DNA of 64,000 nucleotides from Rhodocyclales bacterium (lineage in GTDB: Bacteria; Pseudomonadota; Gammaproteobacteria; Burkholderiales; Rhodocyclaceae): assembly GCA_016214145.1 (NCBI GenBank), contig JACRPA010000004.1:62001-126000 (forward strand), read 5' to 3'. Position numbers and translations under genes: made by a program. The notes beneath the pieces were generated by a model. The model had not been told where the DNA came from. It was given only the letters and a program-made list of their open reading frames with translations, and made no database searches. Shown here piece after piece: positions 6,463-61,967 of the stretch. Numbering within the stretch: position 1 is the stretch's first letter; every line of letters begins with the position of its first letter.

Positions 6463-7820
6463 TGTTTCTTTGGCCGCTTCCAGCCGGGCACGGTCACCTG
6501 CCGCGCGCGCGAGATCGTCAGCTTGTCCGGCGGCGCATCCTGGGTCAGCGTGGTGCCGGCGCCGAGCGTGGCGCCGCGGCCGACGGTGACCGGCGCGACG
6601 AGCTGGGTGTCGGAGCCGATGAAGACGTCGTCCTCGATCACCGTGCGGTGCTTGTTGGCGCCGTCGTAGTTGCAGGTGATGGTGCCGGCGCCGACGTTGA
6701 CGTTTTTTCCGACGCTGGCGTCGCCGACATAGGCGAGGTGGTTGGCCTTGGAGCGGTCGGCCACCGTGCTGTTCTTCACCTCGACGAAGTTGCCGATGTG
6801 CACGTCTTCGCCCAGCTTCGTGCCGGGGCGCAGGCGCGCATAGGGGCCGATGATGCAGCCGCGGCCGGCCTCGGCCTCTTCGATGTGGCTGAAGGGGGCG
6901 ATGCGCGTGCCGGCGCCGATGACGGCGTTCCTCAGCACGCAATGCGCGCCGACCTCGACGCCGTCGCCGAGCACGACGCGGCCTTCGAACACGCAGTTCA
7001 CATCGATGGTCACGTCGCGGCCGCAGTCGAGCTCGCCGCGCACGTCGATGCGGTCCGGGTCGAGCAGCGTGACGCCCTGCTCCATGAGCAGCAGCGCATT
7101 GCGGTACTGATGCAGTCGCTCCAGCTCGGCCAATTGCACCTTGCTGTTCACGCCGAGCACTTCCCAGGAATCGTCGGGTTGCGTCGTCGCCACCGGCATG
7201 CCCTCGCCGATCGCCAGCCCGACGATGTCGGTGAGGTAGTACTCGCCCTGCGCGTTGTCGTTGCCCAGCGCCGGCAGCCAGCGCATCAGCGCCGCGGTCG
7301 GTGCGGCCATGAAGCCGGTGTTGATCTCGCCGATGGCGCGCTCCGCTTCCGAGGCGTCGCGTTCCTCGACGATGCGCAGGATGTTGCCGTCGTCGTCGCG
7401 CACGATGCGGCCGTAGCCGCCCGGATCGTCCAGCTCGTCGGTCAACACGCCGAGACCGCTGCCGGCCGCTTCGATCAGGCGCGACAGCGTGGCCGCGCCG
7501 ATGAGGGGCACGTCGCCATAGAGCACCAGGGTGGGTGCGGCGGGATCGAGAAAAGTCAGTGTCTGCAGGACGGCGTGGCCGGTGCCCAGCTGCGGTTCCT
7601 GCCTGACCCAGACGATATCCGTCGCATCGAGGGCTTCGCGCACGGCTTCGCCGCCATGGCCATAAACAACGCAGATTTTCCCCGCGCCCAGTTCGCGCGC
7701 CGTGTCCAGCACATGCGCCAGCAGAGGCCGGCCGCCCAGGCGGTGCAGCACCTTGGGCAGGTCGGAGCGCATGCGCTTGCCCTGTCCGGCGGCGAGGATG
7801 ACAACGTTGAGATTGGACAT
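6459..7820 (-). CDS. glmU: Bifunctional UDP-GlcNAc pyrophosphorylase / GlcN-1-P acetyltransferase
   Basis: 453 residues. The N-terminal nucleotidyltransferase has the signature [18 protein letters not shown] (about residues 10-27). The C-terminal half is a left-handed beta-helix of hexapeptide repeats with the acetyltransferase residues around NFVEVKNS and [16 protein letters not shown]. It completes UDP-GlcNAc synthesis from the GlmM product and feeds the same pathway as the downstream glmS. The stop codon TGA lies in the GTGAGG element that follows. A copy of the AAAGTCAGTC-N8-ACGGCG motif (7552-7575) lies in the coding region on the opposite strand, encoding part of AVLQTLTF in a normally conserved stretch. 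Confidence 0.97.
7552..7575 (+). repeat. 24-bp motif AAAGTCAGTC-N8-ACGGCG, copy 1
   Basis: AAAGTCAGTG, spacer TCTGCAGG, ACGGCG; one mismatch in the left half. Inside glmU, antisense to it. Confidence 0.8.
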
Positions 7821-7831
7821 GCCAAAACCTT

Positions 7832-61500: not shown

Positions 61501-61967
61501 TGCGAGCGCGGATCGGGAAAGGGCGTGTAGGTGGCGCCGGAGCGGGAGAACTCCGCATACAGCTCGATGACATTGCCGACGTCCACCACCACCAGGAAGG
61601 GCGGGCGGCCCTCCTCGGCCGGCAGGGCGCGGGCGTAGCTCTCGGCCTGGCCGCGAGCGCGCTGCAGGGCGTCGTCGAAGGCTGTCGGGCTTAAGCCCGA
61701 CCTACGCAGCTTCTTCGCCTCCAGCACGAAGGCGCCGCGCCGGTAGCAGTCGATGAAGCCGTGGGATTCGGCTCCGTCGCCGTGGCGGAAGCGCACGCGG
61801 CGCTCGAAGACATAGGCGTTGTCGCGCGTGTCGTCGCGGGCGGGATCGGGCCGGGGCAGGCCGAGCAGTTCGGTGAGTTCGCCGACGAAAAGCTGGTAGT
61901 TGGCGCGTTCCGACCCGCCGGCGGCCTGCCAGCGGGAAATGAAGCGCTCGATGCTTTCGTTTGTCAT
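58503..61967 (-). CDS. Type IIL/IIG restriction-modification enzyme (MmeI-like), single chain
   Basis: 1154 residues from ATG 61967 (a GTG two codons earlier is possible). N-terminal nuclease with D-x9-E-x-K ([16 protein letters not shown], about 70-86); helical linker; adenine-N6 methyltransferase with motif [13 protein letters not shown] (about 396) and motif IV NPPF (about 561-564); then target-recognition and C-terminal helical regions. The order and nuclease motif match MmeI-type enzymes that cut and methylate with one polypeptide, and no separate endonuclease or specificity gene is present. Longer than MmeI (about 919 residues), partly because dispersed repeats are included in frame at about residues 88-98, 640-658 and 1055-1082. 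The coding frame is intact; activity is unproven. Confidence 0.85.
58721..58802. repeat. REP-type palindromic pair inside the MmeI-like gene, copy 4
   Basis: Units 58721-58742 and 58781-58802 of the GTAGGTCGG family in opposite orientation; in frame, encoding VGRPSGRQ...[10 protein letters not shown]. The centre (58740-58766) is shared with the BNR-protein gene at 36064-36090. Confidence 0.9.
59028..59051 (-). repeat. 24-bp motif AAAGTCAGTC-N8-ACGGCG, copy 11
   Basis: On the minus strand, perfect half-sites, spacer TCCCCATG. Inside the MmeI-like gene in sense orientation (LKVSLPMTA). Confidence 0.85.
59981..60054. repeat. GGGGGACGGGG inverted repeat inside the MmeI-like gene
   Basis: Perfect 18-bp arms (59981-59998, 60037-60054) with a 38-bp centre, in frame. 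Encodes [13 protein letters not shown]...RGSPVPLH between ERHLAA and [10 protein letters not shown], in a stretch where related enzymes appear shorter. Confidence 0.8.
61479..61502 (+). repeat. 24-bp motif AAAGTCAGTC-N8-ACGGCG, copy 12
   Basis: AAAGTCAGTC, spacer AGCCGGAT, ACGGTG (one mismatch). Inside the MmeI-like gene, antisense (encodes part of RIRLTDF). Confidence 0.75.
61684..61705. repeat. Single REP unit (GTAGGTCGG family) inside the MmeI-like gene
   Basis: One 22-bp palindromic unit, in frame, encoding [10 protein letters not shown] immediately after the catalytic EAKK of the nuclease domain. Confidence 0.82.

Follow-up and report, generated by a model that had tools for sequence, protein, structure and literature searches.

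The window analysed here is a 64,000-nucleotide stretch of a Rhodocyclales bacterium genome, G000 (assembly GCA_016214145.1; 3,422,993 bp in 12 contigs), covering bases 62001-126000 of its contig 5. It encodes a type IV pilus assembly operon and a PilS-like kinase, and it contains 12 copies of a 24-bp bipartite motif, AAAGTCAGTC-N8-ACGGCG, that we interpret as a putative DNA uptake sequence (Table 1). Only 0.46 copies are expected by chance, and none of 100 shuffled windows reached 12. Seven copies are exact, three have one mismatch and two have two; a scan of the whole window at up to three mismatches found no copy beyond these 12. The scan recovered every copy, with its coordinates and mismatches, from the initial annotation of the window, which had been made by reading the letters alone. 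That annotation also placed the copies in gaps and in unrelated genes on both strands, as we find them. Upstream of two intergenic copies (55714 and 57677), hairpins identified by eye are GC-rich and followed by TTTT.

Table 1. Motif copies and other features of the window, in window coordinates.
Feature	Position	Strand	Context
Motif copy, 1 mismatch	7552..7575	+	antisense within glmU-like gene
Motif copy, exact	27599..27622	+	sense within HlyD-family gene
Motif copy, exact	31866..31889	+	intergenic, exbB-like and tonB-like genes either side
Motif copy, exact	35632..35655	+	antisense within BNR-repeat gene
Motif copy, exact	38150..38173	+	sense within pilS-like kinase gene
Motif copy, 2 mismatches	45589..45612	+	coding, antisense; G010 orthologue of same length, substituted
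Motif copy, 2 mismatches	46293..46316	-	coding, sense; orthologous copies in G001 and G010 nearer consensus than G000
Motif copy, exact	46670..46693	-	coding, sense; G001 identical, aligned stretch 81% identical
Motif copy, 1 mismatch	55714..55737	+	intergenic, 3' of terminator-like hairpin after metK (hairpin by eye)
Motif copy, exact	57677..57700	+	intergenic, 3' of terminator-like hairpin (by eye)
Motif copy, exact	59028..59051	-	sense within MmeI-like gene; G002 identical
Motif copy, 1 mismatch	61479..61502	+	antisense within MmeI-like gene; G002 identical
Type IV pilus assembly operon: pilM, pilN, pilO, gene at pilP position, pilQ secretin	17039..21972	-	no motif copy inside
MmeI-like type IIG restriction-modification gene	58503-61973	-	two motif copies (59028, 61479); Pfam MmeI_N, MmeI_hel, MmeI_Mtase
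Other short dispersed repeats, 65-95 bp	~46489-46582, 49124-49189, 50817-50887, 52272-52366, 58719-58802		distinct from the 24-bp motif; match many places in G004 and G011, some in G002

The motif is over-represented throughout the genome. At up to two mismatches, G000 contains 567 copies (275 forward, 292 reverse), compared with four matches (two per strand) to a reversed-pattern control. In 1.596 Mb taken from G000 and two relatives, G001 and G002, copies with zero, one, two, three and four mismatches number 153, 65, 51, 19 and 132, whereas the reversed pattern gives 0, 1, 3, 17 and 170. The distribution is dominated by exact copies, and the excess over the reversed pattern is gone by about three mismatches. 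A word count that made no use of the motif likewise returned AAAGTCAGTC as the most over-represented 10-mer, both in G000 (62 occurrences in 464 kb versus 0.13 expected from an order-4 Markov model) and in G002 (45 in 400 kb versus 0.1).

The two blocks of the motif are held at a fixed distance. Among 180 exact occurrences of AAAGTCAGTC in the 1.596 Mb, 153 are followed by an exact ACGGCG at a spacer of 8 bp and one at another spacer length (2-15 bp tested); the invariant spacing first noticed in the window thus extends well beyond it. The consensus of 88 G000 and 77 G002 sites (up to three mismatches) is (A)AAAGTCAGTC-YSCGCRRB-ACGGCG. Positions 16 and 17, within the spacer, are purines in 86-96% of copies, which bears out the base bias described initially. 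There is no clear conservation past one base on either side, indicating a unit of about 25 bp and no larger repeat. The word counts also brought up GTAGGTCGGG (29 copies in 464 kb of G000), GTAGGCTGGG (25 in 395 kb of the same-genus genome G009) and CACAGAGAA-like words, which are perhaps REP-like (repetitive extragenic palindromic) repeats.

We mapped 225 sites in 1.276 Mb onto genes predicted with our own simple gene caller, which rates 89.1% of this sequence as coding. Sixty-one sites are sense and 88 antisense within genes, 21 straddle a gene boundary and 55 (24%) fall between genes, an excess over the 10.9% of sequence that is non-coding. Frames in this set are not random, which corrects the initial description of sites in different frames: a single codon phase holds 75 of the 88 antisense sites, and the sense sites are divided 38/18/5 among phases 0, 1 and 2. 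Between the lowest- and highest-GC fifths, site density rises 3.4-fold (0.73 versus 2.47 per 10 kb); the 16 fixed positions of the motif are only 56% GC. Gaps between neighbouring sites are near random, with a coefficient of variation of 0.98 measured on short stretches that cut long gaps. A 39.5-kb segment of G001 and one of equal size in G002 are free of sites; by our reading of its translations, the G001 segment contains the tuf-rpoBC-fusA-ribosomal protein cluster. Inverted pairs are a handful: three overlap at a 9-bp offset and two are wider, and in the 1.596 Mb, which partly overlaps this set, three opposite-strand pairs fall within 100 bp. The sequence of a tight inverted pair allows a hairpin terminating in the T-run of its second copy.

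Nine of the 12 window copies share one orientation, as was noted initially, and this bias is local. Strand totals are equal genome-wide in G000, G001 and G002, which alone does not exclude polarity. In G002, with dnaA at base ~473 and the terminus assumed to lie opposite, the 124 sampled sites divide into 31 on one half of the genome (11+/20-) and 93 on the other (48+/45-); a first sample at up to three mismatches gave 13+/25- and 22+/17-. There is no replichore polarity of the kind shown by FtsK-orienting polar sequences (KOPS). At six places, G002:C1 also carries a 309-aa frame that contains a DnaA-like ATPase domain (e.g. 168169-168474), perhaps an IstB-type transposition helper.

Orthologous sites provide a record of how the motif is maintained. 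Orthologous regions were retrieved for seven window sites and yielded aligned partners for five; the flanks of the three that are identical in G001 or G002 are more diverged. We looked in 716 kb of G002 for counterparts of 62 G001 sites: 34 could be aligned (28 of them coding), and the other 28 had no aligned partner in this sample. Gaps are absent from all 34. Their 16 fixed positions differ at 9 of 544 bases (1.7%), compared with 39 of 272 (14.3%) in the spacer and 1167 of 9914 (11.8%) in the flanks. Restricted to third codon positions, the corresponding values are 2 of 151 (1.3%), 15 of 89 (16.9%) and 679 of 3218 (21.1%). This low divergence, which includes third codon positions, indicates that the nucleotides themselves are maintained irrespective of the encoded protein.

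Conversely, of 122 G002 sites compared with G001, 39 aligned: 19 are exact, 11 have one mismatch, four have two, two have four or five and three are gapped, with a motif divergence of 23/622. Ten of 82 G000 sites aligned to G001 (one gapped, motif divergence 6/159) and 12 to G002 (two gapped, 2/189); the gaps in these G000 comparisons fall at the last one or two bases of the motif. No clean 24-bp empty site was seen among the G001-to-G002 comparisons, and the aligned sites are not insertions. The alignable sites arose by substitution.

We surveyed the distribution of the motif at three levels. Of the 15 other genomes in the genus of G000, 12 hold 266-601 copies and three hold fewer (G009, 21; G012, 32; G013, 60). 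An even draw of 399 genomes from the order, searched with a pattern that misses the dialect B described below, contains two clear carriers, G000 (510 copies) and G282 of the same family (114). Small counts were found in G117 (23) and G054 (14), both of other families, and the remaining genomes have at most 11. G054 contains at least nine copies of one fixed 24-mer, AAAGTCAGTCCCCGCAAAACTGCG, with similar blocks and a constant spacer, which might belong to a larger repeat or be distantly related to the motif.

Among 395 Rhodocyclaceae genomes, we identified 77 carriers of either dialect in 11 of 68 genera, a carrier being a genome for which one or other of two pattern searches returned 20 copies or more. 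Carriers make up 15 of the 16 genomes in the genus of G000 (g1; G012 and G013 are weak), 22 of 22 in g2, 18 of 19 in g19, 9 of 9 in g215, 4 of 4 in g49, 4 of 6 in g217 and 1 of 2 in g179, together with one genome each in g9, g192, g199 and g208 (the last with only 22 copies). The remaining 57 genera reach at most 15 copies (G593) and mostly have 0-5, similar in size to the reversed control. The matches listed in a contig scan include Candidatus Desulfobacillus denitrificans (AP021857.1; 3,145,360 bp), several metagenome-assembled genomes assigned to Rhodocyclaceae, Betaproteobacteria and Sulfuritalea, and a few unrelated records. Exact matches also occur in 24 stretches of viral contigs, 23 of which have a single copy.

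Samples of 60-80 kb from seven genera revealed that the motif has dialects. Five of the seven use dialect B, AAAGTCGGCGCTGGYGRNACGGCG (G016, G446, G504, G548 and G607); G023 mixes GGT and GGC forms (AAAGTCGGYKCTGGCGRGACGGCG), and G433, a weak carrier, has few and mixed copies. Dialect A, the form found in the window, was read directly only in g1. The dialect-B pattern returns 705 copies in G016, 784 in G023, 752 in G446 and 713 in G585, and only 0-16 in genomes of g1. By pattern counts, copies in g217 match AAAGTCNGT-N9-ACGGCG and not the B pattern. Dialects A and B have in common the blocks AAAGTC and ACGGCG and the distance between them.

A tree of the competence protein ComEC from 29 genomes (G549, represented only by a fragment, was left out, and G462 of g208 is not included) places all 13 carriers within one clade of 18 rows, with moderate support (83/97). 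The motif-poor genomes G009, G101, G487, G620 and G641 are nested within this clade as apparent losses, and the remaining 11 motif-free genomes branch outside it. This tree represents one gene, and a competence gene, and is thus a guide and not a species tree. The 395 kb searched in G009 yielded no dialect switch or replacement word. In some motif-poor lineages, ComEC has longer branches (loci L304 in G009, L312 in G487 and L325 in G641), and we do not claim a ComEC-specific change: G641 also has a lower GlmU identity to G000 than its congeners, G009 has no ComEC-specific signal and G487 has no full GlmU match.

Several observations implicate the motif in DNA uptake. It is long and exact, present in hundreds of copies and maintained at the nucleotide level; it occurs in both orientations without replichore bias apart from the mild excess on one G002 half; it is in excess in non-coding sequence and avoids the most constrained genes, as in the site-free rpoBC/ribosomal cluster; and it comes in related dialects across related genera. 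Together these properties match the description of the DNA uptake sequence (DUS) and uptake signal sequence (USS). Competence and type IV pilus genes accompany the motif, though they are not specific to carriers. We put the probability that the motif is a DNA uptake sequence at roughly 0.75, and of the three readings offered by the initial annotation, a site for an uptake protein is the best supported. In such a system, the motif would label a cell's DNA as its own for a receptor at the cell surface that belongs to the type IV pilus/competence machinery, and tagged DNA from the same or a close species would be taken up preferentially. Copies would arise through point mutation in permissive sequence and would then persist and spread, since DNA bearing the tag would enter cells and recombine more frequently. 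This molecular drive would explain how a long, exact and unpolarised motif comes to lie within unrelated genes.

We infer that a pilin receptor binds the motif and thereby biases uptake. Our best guess for this receptor is a PilE-like pilin (locus L249:7389-7805, minus strand) encoded beside fimT-pilV-pilW-pilX, in a minor-pilin cluster with FimT-, PilV- and PilW-like genes. The G000 copy has four cysteines and scores 37.1 bits against ComP_DUS (PF16732; cut-off 27.3), and 10 of 10 aligned orthologues match this family at E<=0.01. A structure model of the pilin has a mean pLDDT (predicted local distance difference test) of 84. Pilins of the ComP_DUS family occur in 51 of 54 genomes.

A number of results weigh against an uptake function. 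Neither ComEC, the GspH/FimT family nor the ComP_DUS family discriminates carriers by its presence, and we rejected all three as motif-tracking receptor genes. ComEC was found in 31 of 32 genomes, non-carriers included, and is missing in G012, which is 81% complete. ComP_DUS pilins are present in all five non-carriers within the ComEC clade, often score higher in motif-free genomes, and have no match in the carriers G008 (85% complete) and G453 (98%). The GspH family, present in 17 of 18 genomes, is missing in the carrier G002, and the PilE-like reading frame is intact in motif-poor G009. These patterns are what make the receptor assignment a guess. The PDB matches of the pilin model (Foldseek) are type IV pilins generally, with ComP at ranks 4 and 5 (E 2.9e-3 and 2.4e-2). 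Non-collinear G001/G002 segments show no depletion of the kind that foreign or mobile DNA might have, with 7 of 26 sites falling in 30.7 kb and 8 of 32 in 34.4 kb, although sites are 3.4-fold scarcer in the lowest-GC fifth. Inverted pairs are few, and they are described as numerous in Neisseriaceae (PMC3630211). One G002 half has its mild orientation excess (20 of 31; 25 of 38 at up to three mismatches) and the other none. A search of the open-licence PubMed Central (PMC) literature for natural competence, type IV pili and comEC in Rhodocyclales returned, among the matches listed, no work on these bacteria.

Maintenance at the nucleotide level and a bipartite 10+6 architecture would suit any sequence-specific DNA-binding protein, and no uptake gene tested tracks the motif. 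The motif could therefore be an unpolarised binding site of a clade-specific intracellular protein that organises the chromosome or nucleoid. We regard this as unlikely given the near-random gaps, the 39.5-kb site-free segments in both G001 and G002, the lack of a replichore pattern in the sampled G002 stretches, and the near-loss of the motif in G009 with no replacement word in 395 kb. A transcription terminator or other RNA-level signal would account for the intergenic excess and for some inverted pairs with T-runs; it is highly improbable, as genes contain 149 of the 225 sites, 88 in antisense, and such pairs are so few.

The shared orientation of nine window copies and of 20 among 31 on one G002 half would fit a polar replication or segregation signal like KOPS, Chi or the architecture imparting sequences (AIMS). 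The other half of the sampled G002 sites, at 48+/45- with the terminus assumed opposite dnaA, and the equal strand counts of three genomes speak against it, and the replichore-oriented signal suggested initially has still less chance of being correct than a terminator. Least credible of all is the very small mobile unit that the initial annotation also considered, inserted as a 24-bp element. Dispersal over unrelated genes and gaps would be expected of it. A clean 24-bp absence in orthologues was not observed among the G001-to-G002 sites, and orthologues lacking the full motif at alignable sites are mostly substituted at equal length (45589 in G010 is one case). Gaps occur at none of the 34 sites from G001 to G002, at three of 39 in reverse (two more being degenerate by substitution) and at the few G000 sites given above; the spacer, moreover, varies between copies.

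To our knowledge, DNA uptake sequences have so far been reported only for Neisseriaceae and Pasteurellaceae. The open-licence PMC literature yielded nothing relevant for the strings AAAGTCAGTC (judged by titles, among the matches listed) and AAAGTCGGCGCTGG, and nothing for 'DNA uptake sequence' combined with Rhodocyclaceae; the words competence, uptake, repeat and pili are absent from the main text of the Ca. D. denitrificans paper. If the motif is an uptake sequence, it is probably a third, separately evolved family of such sequences with its own bipartite design. A fuller scenario is offered tentatively, at a little under even odds: a third bacterial family would have its own uptake sequence, bipartite and with at least two dialects, spread among mostly uncultured environmental Rhodocyclaceae that include the anammox-reactor Candidatus Desulfobacillus, read by a ComP/PilE-type minor pilin at the pilus tip, with a single gain and repeated losses. 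Such a third case, separate from the others and found in environmental bacteria, would mean that self-tagging is no peculiarity of two families. It would also provide new dialects and within-genus losses for studying how uptake sequences rise, drift and vanish, and it predicts preferential gene flow among these bacteria.

The motif can be compared with four known kinds of dispersed sequence. KOPS, Chi and AIMS are polar, and KOPS and Chi have about eight positions. The motif resembles them as a short sequence over-represented genome-wide and differs in not following replichores and in its 16 fixed positions, about twice as many as in these signals (AIMS are 8 bp long). REP elements and bacterial interspersed mosaic elements (BIMEs) are dispersed repeats with an intergenic excess. 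The motif has both properties; unlike them, it is not palindromic, lies mostly in genes and leaves no insertion footprint at aligned sites.

The Neisseriaceae DUS has a GCCGTCTGAA core with dialects and the receptor ComP. It is described as having dialects within the family, permissive placement and numerous inverted pairs at terminators (Frye, 2013, PMC3630211). The motif shares within-family dialects and permissive placement, and a ComP_DUS-family pilin is present in most Rhodocyclaceae carriers tested. It differs in being bipartite and 24 bp long compared with 10-12 bp, in its unrelated sequence, in having few inverted pairs and in a receptor that is only a candidate.

The Haemophilus influenzae USS has the 29-bp consensus aAAGTGCGGT-n-rwtttt-n6-rwtttw, a core with separate downstream blocks, and is reported to have no orientation bias, a non-coding excess and uneven spacing (Bakkali, 2007, PMC1939737). 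The motif resembles this Pasteurellaceae USS in its many copies, its non-coding excess, its lack of orientation bias and its long consensus of a core and a separated downstream block. It differs in that this block is a GC-rich, near-invariant ACGGCG placed after a fixed 8-bp spacer, in its sequence, and in its occurrence in Betaproteobacteria.

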